From positions 1-43,087 of the IMG/VR virus record IMGVR_UViG_3300028829_003755: a DNA stretch of 43,087 nt. One strand, 5' to 3'. Positions within the stretch are counted from its first letter, which is position 1; each line of letters begins with the position of its first letter. Positions 4,555-43,063 of this stretch are shown piece by piece. The stretch comes from a virus. The position numbers and the translations under genes were made by a program. Below the pieces are notes generated by a model. It was not told where the DNA came from and searched no databases. It saw only the letters and a program-made list of their open reading frames with translations.

Positions 4555-4565
4555 ATTATAGCACA
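4555..4565 (-). promoter_or_regulatory. Extended -10 promoter for the leftward helicase-polymerase operon
   Basis: On the minus strand the sequence reads TGTGCTATAAT, a perfect -10 hexamer with a TG extension. No convincing -35 hexamer lies at 16-18 bases. The predicted transcript would start near 4548, about 40 bases before the ATG at 4506. The same TGTGCTATAAT is found at 12538 and 16149 on the plus strand, which supports function. Confidence 0.75.
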
Positions 4566-9508: not shown

Positions 9509-10194
9509 CTACAAGGCAAGCGCGCTACCCTTCGCGCTACCGAGCGCAGACAAGCCAACCACGATCCCGGCGGGATCGGTAAAGCGGAAGTCATGCGTGC
9601 GGCCGTCAATCACGGGCACGCCCTGCCACGTCGCGGGCAAGGGGGCAGACTTTTTACAGTCGAACACCACAGCCACATTGTGCCCGGCGGCGAGGGCGTC
9701 GCGCGTATGCGCGGGATCGTTGCCGGGGTCGTGGCTATAGGTCCGGTGGTAGTTGGGCACGTCCGGCCACAATGCCGGGGGGCGCTTCGTGTAGTCATAA
9801 AACCACACTTCATCCATGTAGTCGTCGAACGCGGGCCAGCGCCACACGGGCAGATCGCTAGTCCCGTTGAGTCGTGCCGCTGGTGCGTAGCCCTGCCGCT
9901 CGCAAGCGTTCACGAATCGGCGCAGATCGTCGGCATCCGCGTGCGACGGATGCGCGCGCGCTGCACGGAATCCATGCGGCCACGTCCGGCAGTGTTGAGG
10001 CAGACAGCCGCGCAGGATGCGGCCCACGGGCACACATTGCGGCCGCTTGCGACGTGCGGCGCGAGGTGCAGAATCACGGATGCGAAACCAGCAGTGTCGG
10101 TAGTCGTTTTTGCCAACTTAGGCGATGCCGTGCCCGCAGTAAGCAGGGCGTAGCGCGGATGGCGGAATGTGTTTGTGTCGGTAGTGGTAGTCAT
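9509..10194 (-). pseudogene. GP88-like protein gene, split by an internal deletion/frameshift
   Basis: Two overlapping frames together make one GP88-type protein known from mycobacteriophages. The first frame (stop near 9910) gives GFASVILHLAPHVASGRNVC and CLNTAGRGRMDSVQRARIRR. The second (ending 9509) gives APAARLNGTSDLPVW, WFYDYTKRP, NYHRTYSHDPGND, AAGHNVAVVF, LPATWQGVPVIDG and DFRFTDPAGIVVGLSALG, the family's signatures in the right order. The frames meet near 9920-9960. From memory, intact members have roughly a dozen more residues between RTR and the helix before RLNGTSD, so a small out-of-frame deletion is likelier than programmed frameshifting. An assembly artefact is possible. The promoter at 10202-10229 makes the ATG at 10194 leaderless; an alternative ATG is at 10206. 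Confidence 0.75.
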
Positions 10195-10201
10195 GCGAGG
10201 G

Positions 10202-10229
10202 ATCATAGTCCTTTCGTGGTGAGTGTCAA
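10202..10229 (-). promoter_or_regulatory. Consensus-like promoter of the GP88-like gene
   Basis: On the minus strand TTGACA (10229-10224), a 16-base spacer and TATGAT (10207-10202). Transcription should begin at about 10195, one base before the ATG at 10194, giving a leaderless message. A GTGATACGG box (plus strand, 10247-10255) lies just upstream; the same box flanks both TTGACA hexamers of the dyad at 11094-11158. Confidence 0.7.
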
Positions 10230-10310: not shown

Positions 10311-10351
10311 AAAAAAAAACCCCCCCGCTCCGGATTGCCCGAAGCGGGGGG
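10311..10351 (-). terminator. Strong intrinsic terminator (leftward)
   Basis: Read leftward: a GC-rich hairpin (CCCCCCGCT pairing with AGCGGGGGG, further pairs beyond one mismatch, five-base loop) followed at once by nine T residues. It lies 70 bases after the stop of the 10422-10910 gene and separates that gene from the downstream leftward genes, which have their own promoter. Confidence 0.92.
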
Positions 10352-10421
10352 ATGGTGGGCTAGCGTTTCCTGCTGTCCTTCCGTAAGACGCTCATCGCCC
10401 ACGCGACGCCCGCGGCCGGGC

Positions 10422-12537: not shown

Positions 12538-12548
12538 TGTGCTATAAT
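12538..12548 (+). promoter_or_regulatory. Extended -10 promoter
   Basis: TGTGCTATAAT, identical to the boxes at 4555 (minus) and 16149. No -35 hexamer at usual spacing. Transcription should start near 12555 and drive the gene at 12579, the tRNA and the fibre genes. Confidence 0.72.
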
Positions 12549-13039: not shown

Positions 13040-13113
13040 TGCGGGGTGGTGTAATGGCAACATCGTGGTTTCATTATCCACAGCCGGAGGTTCGATTCCT
13101 CCCCCCGCCACCA
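13040..13113 (+). tRNA. tRNA with CAT anticodon (Met-type, identity uncertain)
   Basis: A 74-base cloverleaf with encoded CCA. Acceptor GCGGGG pairs with CCCCGC, but position 1 (T) faces C at position 72. The D arm is GTGT/ACAT with a G18G19 loop. The anticodon stem GTGGT/TCCAC carries a T-T mismatch at its inner pair, and the loop TTCATTA puts CAT at 13072-13074. The T arm GGAGG/CCTCC closes the classic TTCGATT loop. The lack of a 1:72 pair is a feature of bacterial initiator tRNAs, but the three G-C pairs typical of initiators are incomplete and base 37 is T instead of a purine. Elongator Met or a lysidine-modified Ile tRNA are alternatives. It fits exactly between two genes. Confidence 0.85.
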
Positions 13114-16148: not shown

Positions 16149-16159
16149 TGTGCTATAAT
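16149..16159 (+). promoter_or_regulatory. Extended -10 promoter for tail-collar and lysis genes
   Basis: TGTGCTATAAT, three bases after the holin-like gene stop. No -35 match. Transcription should start near 16166, leaving a leader with GGGAGGA before the ATG at 16184. Confidence 0.72.
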
Positions 16160-20145: not shown

Positions 20146-20863
20146 AACGACGACATACTGCCTTCACTGTGGCGAGAAGCTGCCTGAGGACTCGCGCGCA
20201 TCGCGCAAGTACTGCAGCGACCATTGCCGCAAGGAGTCTCATAGGCTTGCCGGGGGTAAGGGCAAGCTAACCGAGCAGCGCGAGATTGCGCGCAAGCTCG
20301 CCTTTGAGAACATCCAAGACGAGGTGCGCGAGGTGCTTCGTCAGGAGATCCGCGAGCAGATCACTCAGCACGTTCACGACAACGTGCTGGGCGCTGCCGA
20401 GTCTATGACTCACCTTCTGCCTGAGGCGATGGCCGCTCTCAAGCAGGACCTAGAGTCTGAGGACTGGATGGCCCGCTCGCGCGCGTACGCGCTTGTGATG
20501 AAGTATGCTATGAGTTTCAAGGATACCGACCCCAAGGAAGGTGGGAATCAGAACATCGTCGTCGTTTCAGGAGTACCTACACCGGACACCCCCTTCGGAC
20601 ATGCGGTCGTGGAGCACTATGAAGAGCTCCCGCGCGCATCCGAGGGCGTACCCGCCGAGAAGTACGAGGAAACCTCCGGCCTTGAGGACTTTGAGAAGGA
20701 CTGGCCCAAGTGCTACAGCTGCAAGTCGCACAAGCACCCGTCTAATATGAGGAAGCACGACGACAAGCGCTACATCTGCACGTCATGCAGTATCACACGG
20801 GACTACAAAATGGGCAAGCACAGCCCTGACCTAGACCAGAATAGGGACGGGCTGTTCAGTTGA
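20138..20863 (+). CDS. Putative small terminase subunit with zinc fingers (241 residues)
   Basis: TTG start overlapping the HNH gene by eight bases. The protein has an N-terminal finger (YCLHCGEKLPEDSRASRKYC followed by SDHC). A long helical region follows (LAFENIQDEVREVLRQEIRE and HLLPEAMAALKQDLES, then ARSRAYALVMKYAMSFKD) as in small terminases and Nu1-like packaging proteins. A second finger is near the C terminus (CYSCKSHKHPSNMRKHDDKR then YICTSC). The position directly before the large terminase, with overlapping codons, is the main reason for the call; sequence alone does not prove it. Confidence 0.68.
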   Translation: MPRTTTYCLHCGEKLPEDSRASRKYCSDHCRKESHRLAGGKGKLTEQREIARKLAFENIQDEVREVLRQEIREQITQHVHDNVLGAAESMTHLLPEAMAALKQDLESEDWMARSRAYALVMKYAMSFKDTDPKEGGNQNIVVVSGVPTPDTPFGHAVVEHYEELPRASEGVPAEKYEETSGLEDFEKDWPKCYSCKSHKHPSNMRKHDDKRYICTSCSITRDYKMGKHSPDLDQNRDGLFS

Positions 20864-22317
20864 GCGAGGTTCACTTTGCCTATACTCCTTTCGACATCCA
20901 CCTTCCGTTCCATCTTACGTCTGCACGGGAGAAAGCGGCTATCGGAGCCGTCGGATCAGGTAAGACTATTGCGCTCTGTGCTGATGCCATTTCTCTTGCA
21001 CTGACGCAGCCGGGCAGTCGCATTATGATTGCCCGCCAGTCGGTCCCGTCACTCAGGGACACCACCGAGACCGAGTTTGTGAACCTGTTGTCCATGCGCC
21101 CGGACGATGTGGATGAGGGCACGACCCTGTGGGACCTGTGCGACTCGCGCAGGCAGGCTGGGCACATTGACCGCATTATGTTTCCCAACGGCTCAGAGGT
21201 GATGTTTCGCTCTCTGGACGACTGGCGCAAGCACATGTCCCTGAACCTTGCCGCCGTGTACATTGACGAGGCGTCCGAGGTCAGTGTAGACGCCTTCAAC
21301 GGCCTCAAGACCCGCCTCAGGCAGCAGCAGCCGACCGCCGAGGCGCGCGAGCTGGGGCACAAGTGGGACAAGAGTAACGTCAGGCAGCTGATTGCACTGG
21401 CTACGAACCCCAACGGCCACGACTGGATCTGGGAGCGGTTCGTGAATAACCCGCCGGAGGGCACTCGGCACTTTAGGTCCACGTCATTCGACAACCCCAC
21501 CCTCTACGACGACGCCGGTAAGCCGTCAAACTACCTGCAGTCGCTGCTGGGGATGCCCGAAATCTGGGTCCGGCGCTACGTGCTGTGCGAGTTCGACGCC
21601 TTTGAGGGCCAGATTCTTGAGTTCTCGCCGGAGAATCACGTCGTCAGCCACTTTGAGCCGCCGAAGGACTGGGAGCGGGCTATGGGACTGGACTGGGGGC
21701 TCAGGAACCCGACCGCCGTGGTGTGGTGGGCGCGCAAGCCGGGGTCAACCCGCTGGATTCAGTACCGAGAGTGGCAGACTTACGACCCTACAGATGCTAT
21801 GTCGCGCGAATCGTACCAGACTATGAGCGTTCACGACGTTGCCAAGACGATTAAGATGCTTGAACAGGGCGAGAACATCAAATATCGCGCTGCAGACCCG
21901 GCGATTCGCAATCGCATGGGCGAATCCATGAAATCTATCCAGTATTGGTTCTCTGAGCACGGACTTCACTTCCAGCTGGGCAGCAAAGACTACTCATCGC
22001 GTATTAACGCCCTAAATCAGCTGCTAGTTAGGGGCGATTTGGTACTATCCGACCAGTGCCCCATGACATCTGTTGCATTCCAGCAGTATAGGTGGGCATC
22101 TATCAACGTACAGCGCGAAACCGACGGGGCCGAGCGGCCACGTAAGAAGGACGACCACCTTGTAGACGCTGCCCAGTACATTGCTACGCTATTCTACGGA
22201 AATCAGCCCGTTCAGGCGGCAGAAAAGCCCGTTTCCACGCTAAATAGCCAGATATGGGACCAAGTTAGCAGCCAAATCAAGTCCCAGAAGCTCCGTAACC
22301 GCTATAATATGATATAA
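20860..22317 (+). CDS. terL: Large terminase subunit
   Basis: A 485-residue packaging motor. ATPase: Walker A GAVGSGKT (29-36), Walker B AAVYIDEAS with catalytic Glu (134-139), coupling motif region LIALATNPNGHDWIWERF. Nuclease: first Asp in MGLDWGLRNPTAV (278), central RAADPAIRNRMG, and the last acid cluster KKDDHLVDAAQYI near 440. It cuts and pumps DNA into the prohead through the portal. TTG start overlaps the upstream TGA as TTGA. Its stop codon lies inside the promoter at 22304. Confidence 0.95.
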   Translation: MSEVHFAYTPFDIHLPFHLTSAREKAAIGAVGSGKTIALCADAISLALTQPGSRIMIARQSVPSLRDTTETEFVNLLSMRPDDVDEGTTLWDLCDSRRQAGHIDRIMFPNGSEVMFRSLDDWRKHMSLNLAAVYIDEASEVSVDAFNGLKTRLRQQQPTAEARELGHKWDKSNVRQLIALATNPNGHDWIWERFVNNPPEGTRHFRSTSFDNPTLYDDAGKPSNYLQSLLGMPEIWVRRYVLCEFDAFEGQILEFSPENHVVSHFEPPKDWERAMGLDWGLRNPTAVVWWARKPGSTRWIQYREWQTYDPTDAMSRESYQTMSVHDVAKTIKMLEQGENIKYRAADPAIRNRMGESMKSIQYWFSEHGLHFQLGSKDYSSRINALNQLLVRGDLVLSDQCPMTSVAFQQYRWASINVQRETDGAERPRKKDDHLVDAAQYIATLFYGNQPVQAAEKPVSTLNSQIWDQVSSQIKSQKLRNRYNMI

Positions 22318-22319
22318 TA
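22304..22319 (+). promoter_or_regulatory. Promoter giving a leaderless mRNA for the head gene block
   Basis: ATAATATGATATAATA contains TGATATAAT, an extended -10. The hexamer ends at 22318, so RNA should start at about 22325-22326, where the next ATG is. No ribosome site precedes that ATG. The identical 16 bases occur at 32203, also overlapping a stop codon. Confidence 0.75.
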
Positions 22320-22325
22320 CAAGCT

Positions 22326-22685
22326 ATGACTACTACACCGCAACTTTTGGAAACGGCGCAGGCGTTCAACTCTAACCCTGATCCGATGTTTGCAGGATGT
22401 CTCAACACGGGCAATAACGAGCGGGGTGTTGTGTTCCCCGGCGTGGAAGTCCTTGAGGCGTCGTACTGTTTCATCGGCGTCACGAGCATGATTGAAGGCA
22501 TCGCCGCAATCTACAACATCACGCCCAACGAGGCGCGCAAGCGCATTGAGGGCGACAAGAAAGCTGAGAATAAGCTGGCAAAGCTGGACAAGGAAATCGC
22601 CGATCTTAAGAAGCAGCTTGAAGAGTGGGAGAAGTTCAAGGCTGCAGCGGAGGATTCGGGCCTGTTCACCGTGGCCCTTGATTAA
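22326..22685 (+). CDS. Hypothetical protein with C-terminal coiled coil (119 residues)
   Basis: First gene after the leaderless promoter. MTTTPQLLETAQAFNSNPDP starts a protein with GVVFPGVEVLEASYCFIGVT in the centre and NITPNEARKRIEGDK leading to a clear heptad coil (LAKLDKEIADLKKQLEEWEK). It may be a head-assembly or packaging accessory because it lies between terminase and portal, but no family was recognised. Its stop overlaps the portal start. Confidence 0.77.
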   Translation: MTTTPQLLETAQAFNSNPDPMFAGCLNTGNNERGVVFPGVEVLEASYCFIGVTSMIEGIAAIYNITPNEARKRIEGDKKAENKLAKLDKEIADLKKQLEEWEKFKAAAEDSGLFTVALD

Positions 22686-24598
22686 TGGCTGACGACAGCG
22701 ATAAGACACCCGCAAAGCTGGACATCATGGAGCTCGCGGAGCGTAAGGAGTACGCGCGCAAGAGCCGCCGTGTCTGGGAGCCCGACTGGTGGATGAATCT
22801 GGCCTACGTCAACGGCGAGCAGTACGTTGAGTGGGACCTGACCACCAACCGCCTGATTGAGCTGGTCCAGACGCCGGGCACCGAGCGGACCACCCACAAC
22901 ATCTGCATGCCCATCACGCGCCGCGAGCGGGCCAAGATCCTCAAGACCGTCCCGATTGTTGAGGCGCTGCCTCGGACGGATGCTGAGGACGATCAGTACA
23001 TGGCGCGCGTTCTGAACGCCCAGTATCGCAACTGGCGCAAGGACTGGAAGATGGACCGCCGCCTTCGGAACGCATCGTTCTGGATCGTGACGACTGGTAA
23101 CGCATGGCTTAAGTGGTACTGGGACTCTAATGACGCCGACGCCAAGATGGCGGTGTGTGCGCCGTTCGACGTGTACCCTGACCCGTACGCGAAGTCAATG
23201 GTTGACTGCCGCTGGGTCATCCACTCGCAGTTCCTTGACCGTGAGACCGCCGAAGAGCGTTACAACAAGAAGTTCGACTCCAATGACACCAACGTACTCA
23301 CCGGCATTGAGGGCAGGCTTTACGCCAACTACACCGACTCAGTGTATGCCAACCTGCCCGGCGTAGTGGTTAACGAATACTGGGAGCCACCGAACGCATC
23401 GCGTGAGAAGGGCGCATACGTCGTGTATGCCGGGAATGAGATTATTCACGAGGGCGACTTCCCGTACTCACACGGGCACATGCCGTTTACCCACATCGGG
23501 CACATTGAGCGTGCGAACAGCAAGTGGTACGCCTCGGTCATGGACTACATTCGCGGTCCCCAGCAGGAGCTCAACCGGGTGGAGTCGCAGATTATCGAGA
23601 ACCGGAACCTTGCGAATGGCAAGTGGTTCATTCCGTTCTCGCTTGAGCTTGAGGCCGAGCCGGACGCGAGCCCGCGTCAGGTGCTGCGCGCCTCCGGCGG
23701 TCCTCCCGACGCTTCGCCGCAGTTCATTGAGATTCAGGCGCTGCCGTCGTGGGTGCAGGGTGAGTCCATGCGCTTCACGCAGATGGCGCAGGATATCGCC
23801 GGTCAGCACGAGGTCAGCCGAGGTGGCGTGCCCGGTCGCGTGGAAGCCGCGCAGGCTATCCAGCTGCTGCAGGAGACCGACGACGAGGTTCTTAAGGACA
23901 CCATTCACTCTCTGGAAGAGGCGCTGGCCGAGGGCCTGTGGCAGTGCTCGTCGCTGCTCAAGGAGTTTGGCGACGCCAACCAGATCCTCAAGAGCTACGA
24001 CGACGAGGGGATGATTGAGGTCTTCCAGTTCCAGCGTGACCGCATCCCCGCTGGCGACGAGCTTCGCGTGGTCACGCAGACTACCACTGGCCTGCCGCAG
24101 AGCATCGCTGGCCGCTGGGACCGCGTGCTGAACCTGTGGCAGTACAAGGTCATTGAGGACCCGAAGCAGGTCATGGAGCTTCTTAACCTCGCGCCTGAGT
24201 CGCCGGACCTGCTGCCCGAGGCGCAGGACAAGGCACAGGCGTACCGTGAGAACAAGCTGATGGAGGGTGTGCTTGACGGCACGCCGAAGCCCATCCAGCC
24301 TGATAAGTGGAACAACCACGCTGTTCACATCATGGAGCACCGCCGCTACATGAACACGGATGCGTTCAAGAAGCTTGACCCAGAGATTCAAAATTACTTC
24401 CAGTTCCACCTTGACACTCACCAGCAGCTCGCGGTTGACGCTGCGCTGGAAGAGTCTAAGGTGCAGATGGCGATGCAGGGCATTGACCCTAACGCGCCTC
24501 AAATGCCCCCTGAGGCTGGGGGAGCTCCGCCCGCTGGTCCGCCAGCAGGCCCACCGCAACCAGAGGGGCCGGGACCTATGGCCCCCGTCCAGCCATAG
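22685..24598 (+). CDS. Portal protein (podovirus type)
   Basis: A 637-residue protein at the expected place between terminase and scaffold. Features typical of podovirus portals: an N-terminal SRRVWEPDWWMNLAYVNGEQ and HNICMPITRRERAKI region, a DVYPDPYAKSMVDCRWVIHS segment, YIRGPQQELNRVESQIIENR, and QHEVSRGGVPGRVEAAQAIQ as the crown-side helix. A C-terminal Pro-rich tail (PPAGPPAGPPQPEGPGPMAP) extends into the capsid. Forms the ring through which DNA is packaged and ejected. Starts in a TAATG overlap. Confidence 0.92.
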   Translation: MADDSDKTPAKLDIMELAERKEYARKSRRVWEPDWWMNLAYVNGEQYVEWDLTTNRLIELVQTPGTERTTHNICMPITRRERAKILKTVPIVEALPRTDAEDDQYMARVLNAQYRNWRKDWKMDRRLRNASFWIVTTGNAWLKWYWDSNDADAKMAVCAPFDVYPDPYAKSMVDCRWVIHSQFLDRETAEERYNKKFDSNDTNVLTGIEGRLYANYTDSVYANLPGVVVNEYWEPPNASREKGAYVVYAGNEIIHEGDFPYSHGHMPFTHIGHIERANSKWYASVMDYIRGPQQELNRVESQIIENRNLANGKWFIPFSLELEAEPDASPRQVLRASGGPPDASPQFIEIQALPSWVQGESMRFTQMAQDIAGQHEVSRGGVPGRVEAAQAIQLLQETDDEVLKDTIHSLEEALAEGLWQCSSLLKEFGDANQILKSYDDEGMIEVFQFQRDRIPAGDELRVVTQTTTGLPQSIAGRWDRVLNLWQYKVIEDPKQVMELLNLAPESPDLLPEAQDKAQAYRENKLMEGVLDGTPKPIQPDKWNNHAVHIMEHRRYMNTDAFKKLDPEIQNYFQFHLDTHQQLAVDAALEESKVQMAMQGIDPNAPQMPPEAGGAPPAGPPAGPPQPEGPGPMAPVQP

Positions 24599-24606
24599 GA
24601 GGCTGA

Positions 24607-25032
24607 ATGAGCACTAACGCACCGCCAATGCCGATGGAGCAGGGGGACATGCCCTCCGCTGCACAGGCTGGAATGGGACAGGGGGCATACCCCCCAGAGT
24701 TTAATAAGGCAGCAGACGCCGCCGAGCAGGCGCTTGGCCAGATGTACAAGATTTGCCACCAGCAGGAGCCCGGCTCCCCGCTGTGTGACGCACTGATGAA
24801 CATTATGGCCGCTGTTGCAGAGATCGAGGCGACCGCCGGAACAGGTGGTCCGCCCAACGAGCCAGCACCGGAAGAGATGGCAGCGATGGAAGCTGCTGCT
24901 CCGCCGGTCCCCGGAGGCGCACCCGCGCCAATGGAAGCTGGACCTCCGGCGATGTCGGGAAACCCTGACATGGCCGCTGCCGCTGCTGAGGCAACGGCGA
25001 TGATGAACACCAACCGCCGCGCACCAGCGTAG
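24607..25032 (+). CDS. Ala/Pro/Met-rich hypothetical protein (141 residues)
   Basis: Low-complexity ends (MSTNAPPMPMEQGDMPSAAQ; PPVPGGAPAPMEAGPPAMSG) frame a small folded centre (EFNKAADAAEQALGQMYKIC and SPLCDALMNIMAAVAEIEAT) with two cysteines. It continues the Pro-rich composition of the portal tail and precedes the scaffold, so it may be a head-assembly accessory. No family recognised. Ribosome site AGGAGG is close to the ATG. Confidence 0.72.
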   Translation: MSTNAPPMPMEQGDMPSAAQAGMGQGAYPPEFNKAADAAEQALGQMYKICHQQEPGSPLCDALMNIMAAVAEIEATAGTGGPPNEPAPEEMAAMEAAAPPVPGGAPAPMEAGPPAMSGNPDMAAAAAEATAMMNTNRRAPA

Positions 25033-25046
25033 CAGAAAGAGGAACC

Positions 25047-25910
25047 ATGAGCGAAGAGGCACAGGCACCAGCAGGCGGAGGGTTTGAAGTTGAGCCCGAG
25101 GACGTGAAGTCGTCCAAGTCTGACACGCCCAAGACCGAAAGCAAGGAGTCCAAGTCACAGCCCAAGTCTGAGACAAAGAGTTCCGACGGGAAGTCTGAGT
25201 CGAAGCAGGAGGCCAAGGACGGAGGACCCGCGCCGTGGGCCAACGACCTTGCGGATCGAGGTCTGGACGACCCTCGGATTGACCAGTATCTGCGGGAGGT
25301 TTGGCAGCCCCGCATGACCCAGTTTGAGCAGGATCTGGCCGGATGGTCTGACCTGTTTGGCGGGGACATGGAGGCCGCACAGATCATGGCAGGACTGGCC
25401 GAGGCTCTGGACAACGACCCGGAAGGTACTTATCAGCAGATGGGCGAGCTTCTTGGCCTGTCTGGTGACATTGGGGAGTACGACGAGTTTGACGAGGCAG
25501 AGCACAGTCCCACACCGTATGACGAGGACGATGAAGAGGGGTACGAGGACTCCGACGAAGAGGAGGGGGATGAGTACCGCGACTGGGTGATGAGCAAGAT
25601 GATGGAAGAGCAGGAGGCACATCAGGACGCCGCCTATGAGGACCTTCTGAGCAACATTGAGCAGCAGGTTCCCGGCTTCGACCGTGATCTGTTCCACGCA
25701 GCTATCGTCGCGTTTGAGGGGGACCCGGACAGCGCAATGGAGTGGTACATGAAGTACCACCGCGCGCCCGAGGCACCGGCTGAGATGGATGGGCCGGACC
25801 CCGTGGGTGAGGGAACTAGTGGTGTGCCTAACAAGGACGAGTACTCCAATCTTGGGAGCGCGATTGACGCTTTCCTGTCGGAAGACAGGACGAGTCGGTC
25901 AACGCGCTAG
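25047..25910 (+). CDS. Putative scaffolding protein (287 residues)
   Basis: Highly acidic and Ser/Lys-rich N terminus (VKSSKSDTPKTESKESKSQP), then DNDPEGTYQQMGELLGLSG, an extreme acid block (YDEDDEEGYEDSDEEEGDEY), and C-terminal helices. Immediate position before the major capsid gene, strong negative charge and low complexity all fit a head scaffold that fills the prohead and leaves before packaging. No protease motif visible. Assignment rests mainly on position and composition. Confidence 0.78.
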   Translation: MSEEAQAPAGGGFEVEPEDVKSSKSDTPKTESKESKSQPKSETKSSDGKSESKQEAKDGGPAPWANDLADRGLDDPRIDQYLREVWQPRMTQFEQDLAGWSDLFGGDMEAAQIMAGLAEALDNDPEGTYQQMGELLGLSGDIGEYDEFDEAEHSPTPYDEDDEEGYEDSDEEEGDEYRDWVMSKMMEEQEAHQDAAYEDLLSNIEQQVPGFDRDLFHAAIVAFEGDPDSAMEWYMKYHRAPEAPAEMDGPDPVGEGTSGVPNKDEYSNLGSAIDAFLSEDRTSRSTR

Positions 25911-25931
25911 ATCAATTAAGGAGAAAGCCTA

Positions 25932-27218
25932 ATGGCAGATACTTCTAGTTTCAGCGCAGCGATGAAGACCAAGTTCATTGGTCCGATTCGTGACCAGCTG
26001 CATTCTAACAAGATCCTGCTTTTCGGTCTCCGTACTCGTGACGGTGACGACAAGCAGGACATGCCGCATGCCTCTCGTGATTTCCGGGGCATTGTGGCGG
26101 ACTCTACCGGCATTGACTTTGTTGGTAACGAGTTCCGTATCCCCCTCCGCACGTCGCGGAATCAGGGTACTGGTCCGCGAGCCGAGAACGCTATTCTTCC
26201 GGCTCCGGGGAATCAGGGATACAAGTACATCAGTGAGGACCTGCGGTACTTCTACGGTCTGTTCAACATCACTGGCCAGCTGCTTAAGGCCAGCGAGTCG
26301 AACGAGGGTGCGTTCCGTCGCGCCCTGCAGGCTGAGATGGAGGGCATCACTGACGACCTCAAGCGGCACGTCAACATTCAGGCGTTCGGGACCGGCGACG
26401 GTGCCCTTGCGACTGTGACGGCTGTTGCGGGTAACGACATCACGGTTGACACCACCATCTACTTTCAGGGTGGGGAGTACCTTGACGTCTACGCCGCGCC
26501 GGTTGACCCGGCTAACTCGCCGCTGAACGCTAAGGCGTTCTACGTCACGGCGATTGACCGTTCGACCCTTACCCTCACCGTTTCCGACGGTACGGGTGTC
26601 ACGGTCGGCTCGGTGCTCGTTCGCGCCTCGTCTGATTCGACTCAGACGGTGCCGAACAACGACGTGTATCAGGCGATCAACGGCCTGCAGAACATCATCT
26701 CCGCAGATGGTGAGCTCCACGGCCTTGACCCGACGAACGCCGGGGAGACCTTCTGGAAGTCCTCTGAGGTTGACGCTGCGGGTGCCATTGTCGGCGACTC
26801 GCTCCTGCGCCAGCTCAAGGACGCCATCGGGTTTGAGTCTGGTTCCGACGAGGAGACCATCCTTATCACGACTCGTGGCGTGCGTAACCGCTACGCGAAC
26901 ACCCTGACCGCGCTCAAGCGTTTCAACGACGCTCAGTCGGTCAAGCTTCGCGGCGGCTTCACGGCGCTCATGTTCGATGAGACTCCGATGGTCTACGACG
27001 ACCACTGCCCGCTTGGGCACGTCTTTGCGGTCAACATGCCCGCGATGTTCTGGTCGCAGATGAGCGACTGGGAGTGGATGGAGGAGGACGGCGAGGTTCT
27101 CAAGTGGGAGCCGCGCTACGACCGCTACGTCGGTGTGCTCTTCAAGTACTGTAACCTCGGTACTTGGGCGCGTAACCGCCACGGCAAGATCGTCAACGCT
27201 GAGGATGACGTTAAGTAG
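25932..27218 (+). CDS. Major capsid protein
   Basis: A 428-residue protein with the strongest ribosome site of the block (AAGGAGAAAG) and capsid-like features: N-terminal arm (MADTSSFSAAMKTKF), an E-loop-like STGIDFVGNEFRIPLRTSRN, the helix REVTDDL-type EGITDDLKRHVNIQAFGTGD, and C-terminal GFTALMFDETPMVYDDHCPL and WSQMSDWEWMEEDGEVLKW, as in podovirus HK97-fold capsids. It follows the scaffold and is followed by a hairpin. Residues 1-14 are nearly the same as the start of the protein at 28918. Confidence 0.9.
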   Translation: MADTSSFSAAMKTKFIGPIRDQLHSNKILLFGLRTRDGDDKQDMPHASRDFRGIVADSTGIDFVGNEFRIPLRTSRNQGTGPRAENAILPAPGNQGYKYISEDLRYFYGLFNITGQLLKASESNEGAFRRALQAEMEGITDDLKRHVNIQAFGTGDGALATVTAVAGNDITVDTTIYFQGGEYLDVYAAPVDPANSPLNAKAFYVTAIDRSTLTLTVSDGTGVTVGSVLVRASSDSTQTVPNNDVYQAINGLQNIISADGELHGLDPTNAGETFWKSSEVDAAGAIVGDSLLRQLKDAIGFESGSDEETILITTRGVRNRYANTLTALKRFNDAQSVKLRGGFTALMFDETPMVYDDHCPLGHVFAVNMPAMFWSQMSDWEWMEEDGEVLKWEPRYDRYVGVLFKYCNLGTWARNRHGKIVNAEDDVK

Positions 27219-27241
27219 CCTCAGCTGGTAGCGGGAGCAGG

Positions 27242-27272
27242 GTGGGGCGGGGTCCTAGTGGCCCCGCCTCAC
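27242..27272 (+). other. GC-rich hairpin after the major capsid gene
   Basis: GTGGGGCGGGG (27242-27252) pairs with CCCCGCCTCAC (27262-27272) around a nine-base loop, 24 bases after the capsid stop. No T-run follows, so it is probably a leaky attenuator or a 3'-end stabiliser that would raise capsid mRNA over downstream genes. Confidence 0.6.
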
Positions 27273-27292
27273 ATCCCAATCAAGGAGCCCCA

Positions 27293-28513
27293 ATGGCAAA
27301 GAAAAAGAAAAAGTCAGAGCCAGACAAGCCGCTGTCTTTCCGAGAGCGTCGTGCTGCTGCCAAAAAGCGCAAAAAGAAGGAAGCGAATAGGGCCGCAAAG
27401 AAGCGCGCCCAGAATAGCGCGGATAGGACAAAGCGTGTGGTGGGCGAGGCGTCAGAGCCGCTTCGCGGTGGAAAGGACGGGGCTCGCCTTTTCGACGTGA
27501 AGCCGGACGCAGATAAGCTCAACAACTGGAACAAGATAAAGACGCCGAAGGAGAAGGCGGACGCGGCTCGCCGTAAGAACGCTGCTTGGGGCCGTCAGGT
27601 CGGACAGGGACAGGTCCAAGCTGACGCTGTTAATAAAAAGATTGCGGATGAGAAGGCTTCAAGGCGCGCCGCGCAGAGTGCTAGCGAGCAGGCAGAGATG
27701 CGCTCCCGTGAAGATTACCGCAAGAGCGCCGCGCGCAAGAACACTCGTGAGTACAAGCGCGGCCAGCACCTGCTGAAAGATCCGGGCCGCGAAGAGCGCC
27801 TTGCCAAGTTCCGCGAGAAGAAAACGCGTGCCAATATGGCCCGCGCGTGGACCAAGAAAGCCCCGCAAGGCCCGACTCGTAACCAGTACGGAACATCATT
27901 TGAGTCTAAGAAGGAGCGCGCCACTCGGAAGGGGAATGCCACCAAGGTGCGTAGGAATGCTATGCGGAAGAAGTATGCGGCAAAGGAGCCGTCACCCGTG
28001 AGCAAGACGGCGCGCCAGCGTGCCCGCGACATAAACACCATGAACCGCTCCGAGCCTAAGAATACCGGCAACATCTACGCAGACAAGGACCTCGCGCATG
28101 AGAAGAAGCGGATCTCATCGAAGCCCACCTACAGGCCACCGGGGTCGAGGGCCAGTAACGAAGAGTACAAGAGGGTGGCCAAGAAGGGCCTGCAGGCGAA
28201 GTACGGCGACAACAACGCATTTGTGAAGAAGCTTGGCAGGGGGCTTGCGAAGTTTGGTCGGAAGATCCCCATTGCCGGTGCAGCGGTATCCGCTGCTGTG
28301 GGAGCAGACCCCCTTGAGGCGTTCCCCGGAGTAGTCGGTAAGGCAGGGTCGGCTTCGACCAAGAAGCCGAAGTGGAAGAAGCCTCCGGGCTCACGATACG
28401 TCAAGTCGTCAAAGCGCGGGGCAGCACGACGGCCTAAGCCACGGCCTTCGACAAGGCCAGCTCGCAACAAGCCTAAGCCAAAGAAGTACAACCGAAAGGA
28501 CACTTGGGGCTAG
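27293..28513 (+). CDS. Highly basic predicted virion-internal protein (406 residues)
   Basis: AAGGAG lies a few bases before the ATG; a longer frame from 27242 runs through the hairpin. The protein is extremely Lys/Arg-rich throughout (MAKKKKKSEP, RAAKKRAQNSADRTKRVVGE, RPKPRPSTRPARNKPKPKKY), with predicted disorder and helices and one hydrophobic stretch near residue 340 (IPIAGAAVSAAVGADPLEAF). Such charge suggests binding to packaged DNA. Location right after the capsid gene supports a head-internal or ejected protein. No family recognised. Confidence 0.78.
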   Translation: MAKKKKKSEPDKPLSFRERRAAAKKRKKKEANRAAKKRAQNSADRTKRVVGEASEPLRGGKDGARLFDVKPDADKLNNWNKIKTPKEKADAARRKNAAWGRQVGQGQVQADAVNKKIADEKASRRAAQSASEQAEMRSREDYRKSAARKNTREYKRGQHLLKDPGREERLAKFREKKTRANMARAWTKKAPQGPTRNQYGTSFESKKERATRKGNATKVRRNAMRKKYAAKEPSPVSKTARQRARDINTMNRSEPKNTGNIYADKDLAHEKKRISSKPTYRPPGSRASNEEYKRVAKKGLQAKYGDNNAFVKKLGRGLAKFGRKIPIAGAAVSAAVGADPLEAFPGVVGKAGSASTKKPKWKKPPGSRYVKSSKRGAARRPKPRPSTRPARNKPKPKKYNRKDTWG

Positions 28514-28918
28514 ATGCTCGTTACACCAATACCTACTAACCTTCGACTGGATATGTCCGGCGACCGTGATACATCTGCCGTGGTGGGCAGTGACCTATAC
28601 GGCATCGCTGAGCGCGTGAAAGAACTTGACCCGAATCTGATGATCGTGTTTCACGAGGACCGGGAAGAGCCCTTTACCGTGATGGAGAACTGCAAAGACG
28701 GGGTAATACGGTTCGTCGCTAGGTACAAGGAGCTGGACTCCCGTATCATTGACGACCTCAGGTACATGCTCAACGTGCCGTTTGAAGAGCGGCTTAAGAA
28801 GGTTGAGCGCGAGATTGACAAGGCTAACGCTGACCTAGAGAAGCCGGACGATGAGGTACTTGACTGGCTGGCTTCCGAGATGCGGCGTGACATGAAGAAG
28901 TACGGGATTGTCCATTAA
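28514..28918 (+). CDS. Hypothetical head/neck-region protein (134 residues)
   Basis: The ATG directly follows the previous stop (TAGATG). MLVTPIPTNLRLDMSGDRDT opens a protein with VKELDPNLMIVFHEDREEPF and DGVIRFVARYKELDSRIIDD, ending in a charged coil (EERLKKVEREIDKANADLEK). A similar 'TPIP.NLR' opening occurs in proteins of the virion region of other actinobacterial phages, as far as I recall. Function unknown; its stop overlaps the next ATG. Confidence 0.77.
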   Translation: MLVTPIPTNLRLDMSGDRDTSAVVGSDLYGIAERVKELDPNLMIVFHEDREEPFTVMENCKDGVIRFVARYKELDSRIIDDLRYMLNVPFEERLKKVEREIDKANADLEKPDDEVLDWLASEMRRDMKKYGIVH

Positions 28919-29337
28919 TGGCTGACACTGTGTCATACAGTGCAGCGATGAAGACTAAGGAGAAGGGAATGGCTCTTAGTAAAAAGCAGAAGCGCGCAGC
29001 AGCTGATGCCCGCACGCAGAACACTGCGATGGGGAACTATCAGGCCATGCGACACAAGGCTATTCAGCAGAAGCAGACCACCGGCAAGGTGGGGGCCAAG
29101 ACTCAGAAGCAGCTTGCCGCTGCCAAGAAGAAGAACGCCGCAGGCCCGCTGTCGTGGGCTAACTTCAAGAAGGCGTACGTCACTAAGCACGGTGCTCAGA
29201 AGGGGCAGGAGAGCTGGACCAAGGCGCGCGACTCGTTCTACAACTGGCGGCAGAAGCGCGGCTCGGCTGTGCAGCTTGGCGAATACTCGCGTAACGACGC
29301 TCAGACGCACGACGAGTACGGGCGCAAGAAGGCTTAA
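28918..29337 (+). CDS. Small basic protein with capsid-like N-terminal leader (139 residues)
   Basis: MADTVSYSAAMKTKEKGMAL begins with a 14-residue leader matching the major capsid protein at 12 positions. The rest is strongly basic and helical (LSKKQKRAAADARTQNTAMG, KQLAAAKKKNAAGPLSWANF), ending DEYGRKKA. A start at 28969 (MALSKKQKRA) has a better ribosome site (AAGGAGAAGGG), but the leader similarity argues for the TAATG start. Likely a DNA-binding or head-internal protein. Confidence 0.77.
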   Translation: MADTVSYSAAMKTKEKGMALSKKQKRAAADARTQNTAMGNYQAMRHKAIQQKQTTGKVGAKTQKQLAAAKKKNAAGPLSWANFKKAYVTKHGAQKGQESWTKARDSFYNWRQKRGSAVQLGEYSRNDAQTHDEYGRKKA

Positions 29338-30026
29338 TGTCTGTGCCTACGGTGACATACGCGGATCTTGTGTCCCGCTGCCTTACCTACGGGTACGGCA
29401 TCTCTGACGAAGAGAACTTCAAGGTGTGGCTTAACAAGGCATACGTTGATGTATCTGGCATGTTCCCGTGGGACTGGCTTGAGGCGCACACAGACATTGT
29501 GACGACGCCCCAGCAGCCGACGACGCCCATGCCCGCAGACCTCAAGCAGTGGGGCAGGCTGTCGCCGACGACGGGCGTGGACAACTGGTACACGCCTGAG
29601 TACATGAGTGAGTTCGACTACCGAGAGTATGTGCGGACCCGCAAGTACACCGAGAACCACTACGCGCAGCCTGCGTACTACACGCTGTTCGCCAACGAGA
29701 TTCACTGGACACCATTCCCTGACAGGGAGTATACCTACAGGCTCAGCTATTGGGCATCCCCTGTCGCTCTGGTGGACCCGTCGGACGTGACGCGCATTCC
29801 TGACTATGACGTAGATGTGCTGGTGCAGTACGCGCTGTCGCAGATGGCTCAGCGGGAGAACGACTACTCCAAGGCAGCCTCCGCGCTTGACATGGCAGGG
29901 GCCAAGGTGAACCAGATGATGCGGAACCAGAAGTCGCGCCAGAAGCAGAAGATTGACAGGGTGCCGATGCCCGCCTCCTATGGCGGTGTGTACGACACCG
30001 ACACCCGGCGACGGTGGCGCGCGTGA
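29337..30026 (+). CDS. Head-tail adaptor / tail tube protein A-like (229 residues)
   Basis: Helical and aromatic: SVPTVTYADLVSRCLTYGYG, LNKAYVDVSGMFPWDWLEAH, AYYTLFANEIHWTPFPDREY, TYRLSYWASPVALVDPSDVT, then VLVQYALSQMAQRENDYSKA. This order (N-terminal helix with W/N-rich motif, 'P......YR..YW..P..L', then helix with acidic pair) is that of T7 gp11 / P22 gp4-type adaptors that sit under the portal. Its position between capsid and gp10-like genes agrees. Starts in a TAATG overlap. Confidence 0.8.
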   Translation: MSVPTVTYADLVSRCLTYGYGISDEENFKVWLNKAYVDVSGMFPWDWLEAHTDIVTTPQQPTTPMPADLKQWGRLSPTTGVDNWYTPEYMSEFDYREYVRTRKYTENHYAQPAYYTLFANEIHWTPFPDREYTYRLSYWASPVALVDPSDVTRIPDYDVDVLVQYALSQMAQRENDYSKAASALDMAGAKVNQMMRNQKSRQKQKIDRVPMPASYGGVYDTDTRRRWRA

Positions 30027-32206
30027 GTCTTGCCGAGCTGACACTTCCCTCGTCGCTCAACTCAGCGGTCCCCGTTAGCCGACTGCCGCAGGGGTACACC
30101 ACCGAGCTGTCGAACGTGATGATGCGCGAGCTTCCGGGCCGGATGCGTCCGCGTAACGGCATGCGCGTAGTCGCTGCGTGGGGTGCGCTCGGTGAGGACA
30201 TCTGGCCGTACTGGGCAACGGAGTCGGCGGATAACCTCCGACTGATGATCGGTGCTGCGAAGATCACCGTGGACGACGACGGCACAGAGAAGAAGCGCCC
30301 GTGGTCTTTCTACTACCCGCGCTATAGGGTCGCACGGGGAGAGTACTTTGGGGTTCAGGTGGCGGCTGTGACTCAGGTAGAGCAGAAGATGATTACGGTG
30401 GACTTTGAGCAGAATCAGATGGATAAGCTGCAAGCCCCGCCTACTGGATCAGATGTTGAGCAGAACTACAAGCGCGTAATGATTATGCCGATGGGCACAG
30501 AGATGCCGTGGGGCAACCCGATCAAGATGGACAACTCGGTGCTGTTTACCACAGCGGGCGACGAGTTTAAGACGACTCGTATGTGGAAGAACAACAGCAG
30601 CGAGAACAGGCATATTCCGTGGTCGTGCGTTTACGCATGGGGAGGCCAGTGGCACTGGCCAAAGCCCGCTATTGGCCCTGTGTCTGGTTCAACCACCTCA
30701 CTTAGCGTAACCTTCAAGGCTCCCGAGGTGACAATCGGCGTTGACAGTGACCCTCTGCACAACACTCAGGGAGACAAGACAGGAACCGTGGTGTACAAGA
30801 AGACCAACGAAGATAGGTATTACCACTACACCTACTGGTTCCAGAACAACCACCCGAACACCCTTCCTGCGTACCAGTTTGACCGTGCCTTTGGTTGGGG
30901 TGCCCCGTCACCAGCGCCAGATGCCCCTAATGTGTACGGCAACGCGCTTGAGGTGTACGGCTCGCCCGGCGGGCCGGTGACGCTTGCTGAGTACAAGGAC
31001 AGGTGCTTTGCGGCGCGCGGCGTGATTGCAGCATCAAGCGCCGGGGGTAATGCTGCGTACCCAAGCCGGGTCGGTGACTTCGCGGGCTACGCAGGCAACG
31101 CCCTGATCTGGTCGAAGCCGGGTAACTGGAACGATTGGCGCGATCAGGACTACGCGCTCGTGGACACTGACTCGTCAGACCCGATCACAGCGCTGGCTGC
31201 CCTGTCGGACGTTCTCTACATCTTCAAGGCCAACAAGACGTTCGCGCTTACTGGCAACGATGAGGACTCGTTTGCCATCCAGAACATCTCGGGAGTCGTA
31301 GGGTGCCCGTATCCGAACGGTATTACTGTGTACGAGAACACGCTGTTCTTCGCCGCTGCCGACGGGGTGTACTCACTCAGCGGGGCTGGGGAACTGACCA
31401 ACATCACCGCGCCTGATGCCTCCACAGGAATCGCTAAGCTGTGGGCGCGCCAGCCGTGGTCGGTTGTCACTGGGCGTCCGATCCTACGCACCGAGCCAAT
31501 AGAGCCCACGTCTATGTACCAGTACTACTGGCCTACGCTGGCAGTCACGCCGGACGGCACGCTGCTGGTGGCGGTGCAGGACCTGCACAATGATCTGACT
31601 CAGAACTTTGCCTACGACATTATGAATGGGACGTGGAGCCAGTGGGGAGCACAGGACCCAGCGAACAACCCGATCCGAGTTCTGCAGATGTCGCGCGGCA
31701 GGGTGCTCGGCATTCACCGGCAATACGTCACTGACCTTACCGACCTGTTCAATTCTGAGGGACTTGAGACCGGGTTCTATGACGAGTACGTGACAGGAGA
31801 CCCCTCTGCAGACGTCGCCCTGCAGTACCCGCAGTCGCCTATTGTTGTGGACGCCCAGATGTATCTGGCCACGCCGGGCAACACCACTCGCCTGAGGGAA
31901 CTGCAGATTGACCACAACGTATACAGCACGAGCGGCGGCGAGGCAACATGGGAGTTCTCGTTCTCCCGTGACGCGCACCTGCACGACGACTCTGTGGGCG
32001 AGACTCATACCCTGACGGCAGCCGCCGGGGACTCGTTGGAGACCGACCTGCACCACGATAGGTTTGCTGAACGCTACCAGCGGGAGGGCACGCAGATCGG
32101 GATTAAGATGCACCTTGAAACAGACGTAACTGGTGCAGTTCAGGACTACTCAATCTACGCAGCCTACGCCGAGATTGAGACCACACGCACAATGTCAACC
32201 ACATAA
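30014..32206 (+). CDS. Large head-closure / tail nozzle protein, beta-propeller-like (730 residues)
   Basis: GTG start overlapping the adaptor gene; GTG at 30023 (GTGA overlap) is equally possible. Opening LPSSLNSAVPVSRLPQGYTT and SNVMMRELPGRMRPRNGMRV resembles phage stabilisation/nozzle proteins, which begin with a strand binding the adaptor and a 'N..P....G.R.R.G' motif. The centre has NALIWSKPGNWNDWRDQDYA, LSDVLYIFKANKTFALTGND, GCPYPNGITVYENTLFFAAA and GVYSLSGAGELTNIT, matching P22 gp10-like / T7 gp12-like proteins. Its stop lies inside the 32203 promoter. Confidence 0.85.
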   Translation: MARVSLAELTLPSSLNSAVPVSRLPQGYTTELSNVMMRELPGRMRPRNGMRVVAAWGALGEDIWPYWATESADNLRLMIGAAKITVDDDGTEKKRPWSFYYPRYRVARGEYFGVQVAAVTQVEQKMITVDFEQNQMDKLQAPPTGSDVEQNYKRVMIMPMGTEMPWGNPIKMDNSVLFTTAGDEFKTTRMWKNNSSENRHIPWSCVYAWGGQWHWPKPAIGPVSGSTTSLSVTFKAPEVTIGVDSDPLHNTQGDKTGTVVYKKTNEDRYYHYTYWFQNNHPNTLPAYQFDRAFGWGAPSPAPDAPNVYGNALEVYGSPGGPVTLAEYKDRCFAARGVIAASSAGGNAAYPSRVGDFAGYAGNALIWSKPGNWNDWRDQDYALVDTDSSDPITALAALSDVLYIFKANKTFALTGNDEDSFAIQNISGVVGCPYPNGITVYENTLFFAAADGVYSLSGAGELTNITAPDASTGIAKLWARQPWSVVTGRPILRTEPIEPTSMYQYYWPTLAVTPDGTLLVAVQDLHNDLTQNFAYDIMNGTWSQWGAQDPANNPIRVLQMSRGRVLGIHRQYVTDLTDLFNSEGLETGFYDEYVTGDPSADVALQYPQSPIVVDAQMYLATPGNTTRLRELQIDHNVYSTSGGEATWEFSFSRDAHLHDDSVGETHTLTAAAGDSLETDLHHDRFAERYQREGTQIGIKMHLETDVTGAVQDYSIYAAYAEIETTRTMSTT

Positions 32207-32218
32207 TATGATATAATA
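32203..32218 (+). promoter_or_regulatory. Second copy of the leaderless promoter
   Basis: ATAATATGATATAATA, identical to 22304-22319, overlaps the stop of the preceding gene. The -10 hexamer ends at 32217, so RNA should start near 32224, two bases before the ATG at 32226. It would give the internal-protein genes an extra transcript. Confidence 0.75.
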
Positions 32219-32225
32219 GGGAATA

Positions 32226-32429
32226 ATGCGAGCTATGTATCCAGACTACGGGCGCTACGCCGCCGCAGAATCACAGAGGGCAAGCTTTATGGAAAGCGGC
32301 GCACGCGCCATGAAGCGTCCATCAGGCGGAACTCCTAGTAAGGCGTTCGCGGATACTGTGCCTAAGGCTCCGCAGGTAGCCACGCGCTACAATCCCGGTT
32401 ATGTTCCTATGAAGAAGGGGATGCGCTAG
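32226..32429 (+). CDS. Small basic protein, first of the internal-protein block (67 residues)
   Basis: MRAMYPDYGRYAAAESQRAS opens a basic, Tyr- and Ala-rich peptide ending NPGYVPMKKGMR. Starts on, or within two bases of, the predicted transcript start, with no ribosome site; ATG at 32235 is a possible alternative. It ends with TAG directly followed by the next ATG. The composition is like that of the following internal proteins. No family recognised. Confidence 0.7.
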   Translation: MRAMYPDYGRYAAAESQRASFMESGARAMKRPSGGTPSKAFADTVPKAPQVATRYNPGYVPMKKGMR

Positions 32430-43052: not shown

Positions 43053-43063
43053 ATTATATCACA
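43053..43063 (-). promoter_or_regulatory. Extended -10 promoter of the RNR gene
   Basis: On the minus strand TGTGATATAATGG, very close to the actinobacterial extended -10. Start expected near 43046, leaving a leader of about 26 bases with AAAGGAG before the ATG at 43019. Confidence 0.72.

Follow-up and report, generated by a model that had tools for sequence, protein, structure and literature searches.

Two identical 16-nt elements in the late region of the window (the whole stretch of phage DNA analyzed here, 43,087 nt) are best interpreted as extended −10 promoters of the host SigA (sigma-70-type) that lie in a packed late operon of a phage with a probable actinobacterial host and give near-leaderless mRNAs; we assign this reading a probability of about 0.77. 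On the sequence evidence, the predicted promoters at the two positions, termed sites A and B, are real elements, and the likely product of both is a leaderless or near-leaderless mRNA, with the start position and the leaderless translation predicted from the same evidence. The best reading of the layout is a compact promoter internal to the operon, in hosts whose lineage tolerates leaderless mRNAs, and not a special device.

Extended −10 promoter elements at two late-gene junctions

A search of the whole window recovered two exact copies of the 16-mer ATAATATGATATAATA and no third (Table 1), compared with 0.01 matches expected in shuffled sequence with three mismatches allowed. Inside each copy is a perfect extended −10 element (TATGATATAAT; TATG-A-TATAAT). 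Both copies overlap the stop codon of the upstream gene, the terL TAA at 22315–22317 falling within the −10 box of site A. The boxes end at 22318 (site A) and 32217 (site B), leaving 7 and 8 nt before the ATG codons at 22326 and 32226. Identity of the two elements, overlap with the upstream stops, and a distance of 7–8 bases to the next ATG had all been claimed in the earlier note, and each proved accurate.

The first T of the −10 box lies 13 bp (site A) and 14 bp (site B) from the start codon, close to the ~12 bp typical of TA-led genes (PMC3160421). The 7- and 8-nt gaps match a Shine–Dalgarno (SD) sequence over at most 3 nt and lie upstream of, or at, the predicted transcription start site (TSS). 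For the 119-aa gene downstream of terL, which gave no matches in Pfam and PHROG searches, the TSS was predicted at 22325–22326, and the upstream region is SD-free. A consensus scan of the + strand found no −35-paired promoter at either site, and the presence of an extended −10 element at both boxes explains why no −35 box is visible.

Table 1. Coordinates of promoter elements and adjacent genes in the window
Feature	Position	Strand	Remarks
Weaker candidate TATGGTATTAT	722–732	−	Followed by GGAGGTAG, then ATG 713; possible promoter-on-SD layout
Extended −10 TGTGCTATAAT	4555–4565	−	Leader with AAGGAG
GP88-family gene, 5′ part	9910–10194	−	Pfam GP88 matches in both frames
TTGACA-16-TATGAT promoter-like site	10202–10229	−	11/12 matches to consensus
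Extended −10 TGTGCTATAAT	12538–12548	+	Leader ~24 nt; AGGAGG before ATG 12579
Extended −10 TGTGCTATAAT	16149–16159	+	Leader ~18 nt; GGGAGGA before ATG 16184
terL, terminase large subunit	20860–22317	+	Upstream of site A; PHROG match, E 2e-38
16-mer ATAATATGATATAATA, copy 1	22304–22319	+	
Site A, extended −10 TATGATATAAT	22308–22318	+	TG 22310–22311, TATAAT 22313–22318; overlaps terL stop
119-aa gene between terL and portal	22326–22685	+	N-terminus and start position kept in relatives
16-mer ATAATATGATATAATA, copy 2	32203–32218	+	Overlaps stop TAA (32204–32206) of upstream gene
Site B, extended −10 TATGATATAAT	32207–32217	+	TATAAT 32212–32217
67-aa small late gene	32226–32429	+	Predicted leader 0–2 nt; N-terminal length to conserved YG same in relatives
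Extended −10 TGTGATATAAT	43053–43063	−	Leader; AAAGGAG before ATG 43019 (ribonucleotide reductase)

Promoter set across the window

A plain exact-match scan of the window found six perfect TGNTATAAT elements, each pointing toward a downstream gene. In a matrix scan, six TRTGNTATAAT sites (22308+, 32207+, 12538+, 16149+, 43063−, and 4565−) scored 20.3–21.4, and the next-best score was 14.1, with approximately one match expected at ≥12 in Markov-generated sequence. These matrix scores are partly circular because sites from the window helped to build the matrix; the 16-mer search and the exact-match scan are free of this circularity, and the exact-match count is the cleaner figure. The TRTG motif was present in all 25 compiled sites, which had been collected by TG plus a −10-like hexamer, the T(A/G) before TG being no part of the criterion. 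The weaker candidate at 722–732 scored 10.0, a level at which ~2.6 matches are expected. Genes for a sigma factor or RNA polymerase were not found among the subset of ORF products scanned with Pfam or PHROGs.

Four of the six strong sites are followed by leaders of ~18 nt or more and a clear SD before the ATG; sites A and B are not. The phage thus appears to use one promoter type in two geometries. The statement that other genes carry strong ribosome sites was broadly right, since an SD match of at least 5 nt preceded 22 of the 37 called genes, a count that depends on a crude choice of genes and starts.

A third case of the same geometry had been proposed for the GP88-family gene on the − strand. 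There, TTGACA at 10229 is followed by a 16-nt spacer, TATGAT ending at 10202, and 7 nt to the ATG at 10194, so that both the pattern and the spacing are real; however, this promoter combines a −35 with a −10 box and so belongs to a different type, it is a weaker case, and it should not be counted with sites A and B. An alternative in-frame ATG lies inside the TATGAT, and the search for relatives of the GP88 gene returned one weak locus only. The 3′ part of the gene was found in another frame (9509–10033), the two frames meeting near 9934; this split (9509–10194, − strand) could reflect an assembly error, a broken gene, or programmed frameshifting. Just upstream of the promoter, a very strong terminator-like hairpin with a T run occupies 10319–10353 (− strand).

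Conservation of the promoters in related phages

TerL and capsid sequences served as queries to collect relatives. The promoter between terL and the next gene was kept in each of the eight loci whose TerL shares 57% identity or more (the window, L014, L016, L007, L008, L009, L010, and L027); the near-identical contig group L003/L004/L011/L013 matches the window and was left out of this count. The shared pattern is T(A/G)TGNTATA(A/C/G)T followed by 7 nt and ATG, the gap being 7 nt in seven loci and 9 nt in L009. Column conservation reached 0.95/0.88 over the promoter core, compared with ~0.4–0.7 in most flanking bins. In seven of the eight loci, the first preferred purine at nt 6–9 after the box, where transcription normally starts, is the A of the ATG, and with a spacing of 7 the nucleotides at positions 6–7 are mostly pyrimidines. 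The proteins downstream of sites A and B align with those of the relatives from the ATG onward, indicating that the start codons are not mis-called. Conservation of promoter and ATG spacing between diverging flanks thus lends strong support to the leaderless geometry put forward in the earlier note.

More distant relatives show other spacings at the terL junction. Promoter-like elements followed by leaders were found in L019 (TGTGGTACACT, then GGAGG and GTG), L053 (TGTTATGCT, with the ATG 18 nt further), and L030, the predicted leaders in L053 and L019 being roughly 11–27 nt, and L095 has TGCTAAGAT with the ATG after 8 nt. The leadered elements in L019, L030, and L053 indicate that the leaderless geometry is not obligatory, and the promoter position at this junction looks older, or more widespread, than the leaderless spacing. 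In L030, palindromic TATGGTACC...GGTACCATA (L030:5512–5560) forms an operator-like sequence that overlaps the promoter-like element.

At the junction homologous to site B, the same promoter was present in L014, L015, and L018, with respective gaps of 14, 10, and 12 nt to the start codon of the homologous small gene, giving a range of 8–14 nt for the window and its relatives and predicted leaders of 4–8 nt in the relatives. A similar promoter stands 10 nt before an ATG in L095, downstream of a distant homologue of the gene upstream of site B. Two further junctions carry such promoters, one after the capsid gene (junction C; 9 nt before the next gene in L014, L015, L016, and L018) and one after the portal gene (junction D; 7–10 nt before the next gene in L009, L010, and L027). 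Over all close-spaced sites, the predicted leaders are mostly 0–5 nt, with 8 nt at one B site. Control hexamers with reordered letters gave almost zero sites and no peak near gene starts.

In L014, L015, and L018, the TTGACA that precedes site B was rejected as a −35 box; its spacing is 20–22, and it lies within a conserved coding stretch. Phage records searched at the nucleotide level with the 14-kb region gave zero matches, and the protein encoded upstream of site B, used as a query, returned no viral contig. A GC-rich hairpin follows the capsid gene in the window (27219–27290, + strand) and in relatives; in L014, L015, L016, and L018 an extended −10 promoter comes closely after it, and the window is without that promoter.

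Probable host and proposed mechanism

The phage probably infects an actinobacterium, as judged from its capsid relatives. Those found in named phages belong, where the host is named, exclusively to actinophages, with hosts in Arthrobacter, Microbacterium, or Cellulosimicrobium at ~30% identity, and a 66%-identical capsid relative lies on a contig binned in a Mycobacterium MAG. TA-led genes make up ~20% of the genes in Actinobacteria (PMC3160421). Of the M. tuberculosis genes that have a primary TSS, 26% are leaderless; in this species the extended −10 promoters form the stronger class, and a −35 consensus was not found (PMC3898074).

We propose that the host RNA polymerase, carrying the main sigma factor, would recognize TRTGNTATAAT without a −35 box. 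At site A the first transcribed base would be the A of the ATG (22326), and at site B the start would fall no more than 2 bases from the ATG (32226), so that the 5′ end of the local mRNA would be the start codon and ribosomes would translate it without an SD, by the known route for leaderless mRNA. Both genes would also be contained in mRNA reading through from upstream, which could be translated via SD-like bases between box and ATG or by coupling to the upstream stop. In a leaderless-tolerant host, a promoter may be squeezed between two genes at little cost to translation. Such an arrangement fits a mode of translation start that is already common in these hosts, and the explanation is an ordinary one.

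The phage encodes a tRNA with anticodon CAU (13040–13113, + strand), which we rejected as an initiator tRNA favoring leaderless translation because its anticodon stem lacks the three G-C pairs of initiator tRNAs. In this tRNA, U1-C72 and U31-U39 are mismatched and position 37 is a U; Met or lysidine-type Ile are its candidate identities.

Alternative readings

The gap between box and ATG could itself be kept as an SD, such that read-through RNA would be SD-led, local RNA leaderless, and the mode of initiation shifted during infection. GGAG, AGGAG, or GGAGG occurs in this gap in L016, L007, L008, and L009 at site A, in L095 at site B, in L014 at junction C, and in L010 and L027 at junction D, and AGGGG or GGGG-type stretches occur in several other gaps. 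These stretches lie at a workable SD distance, and they would be absent from locally started RNA and present in read-through RNA; their occurrence in several gaps suggests that SD-led translation also matters. Leadered sites, moreover, mostly have no SD directly after the box (gtagcc, acaggc, ccaccc; ggaagt being the exception). However, site A of the window (acaagct) and the A sites of L010 and L027 carry no SD in the gap, and at site B of the window the only SD-like stretch is AGGGA. G-rich bases beside a −10 box can also be a contact of sigma region 1.2, which counts against an SD function. We therefore consider dual use of the gap fairly unlikely. The broader proposal, that this actinophage clade fuses promoter and ribosome site so that the choice of transcription start sets SD-led or leaderless initiation at one start codon, is unlikely as well. 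A collection scan for TRTGNTATAATNGGAGNNNNATG returned 32 loci, mostly from low-GC phages and in more than half of the cases with an ORF of <20 aa, indicating that the fused pattern is not specific to the clade. If true, a fusion of promoter and SD that switches the mode of translation would be new.

The earlier note had also suggested deliberate leaderless translation of selected late genes, which would imply a special expression pattern. The strict 7-nt spacing in seven of eight terL junctions and the strong SDs elsewhere in the genome speak for it. Nevertheless, leader length varies at homologous junctions, SD-like stretches are present at many sites, the genes served differ (small proteins of unknown function, the protein after the capsid, and the protein after the portal), and genes without leaders are an ordinary feature of actinobacteria (PMC3160421; PMC3898074). 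These observations argue against the suggestion, which we regard as quite unlikely.

It is highly improbable that the AT-rich boxes, despite their overlap with stop codons, merely serve as the context of a stop codon or as an unstructured region for translation initiation in a genome with 59% GC, because TRTG (the −16 element) and the box are kept in L009 with the stop TAA upstream and outside the box, leadered genes, with no stop codon involved, are preceded by the identical 11-mer, and L095, at 68% GC, keeps TGTGCTATAAT. A sequence duplication or protein-binding repeat was rejected as the main reading of the 16-mer, given that only the 11-mer core is common to other sites and that L009 lacks the partial second TATAATA present upstream at site A.

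Comparison with known systems

The extended −10 reading yields a conserved and easily tested set of phage promoters that predicts leaderless late messages, and read-through and local RNA at one start codon would offer a natural comparison of SD-led with leaderless translation. Promoters of phages that infect actinobacteria are poorly defined, as stated for mycobacteriophages (PMC11373665), and extended −10 elements account for only 7% of the mapped mycobacterial TANNNT promoters (PMC3898074; PMC4633059).

The closest counterparts include the TA-led genes of Actinobacteria (BMC Genomics 2011; PMC3160421), in which a −10-like TANNNT lies ~12 bp before the start and the mRNA has no room for an SD; the phage sites differ in having a full extended −10 element with TRTG, in their location in a late operon, and in their overlap with the upstream stop. 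Leaderless transcripts of M. tuberculosis and M. smegmatis (PMC3898074; PMC4633059) likewise share a TSS expected within 5 nt of the start and a −10 element without a −35 box, but those transcripts were mapped by experiment, whereas the phage ones are predicted from sequence and conservation. Among phages, transcription from the start codon is described for leaderless genes such as lambda cI and examples in P2, according to the passages of PMC4633059 and PMC9031893 that cite them, and a leaderless P90 transcript was predicted in mycobacteriophage Adephagia (PMC11373665). In contrast to these cases, the arrangement described here recurs at several junctions of a late operon and is conserved over a clade.
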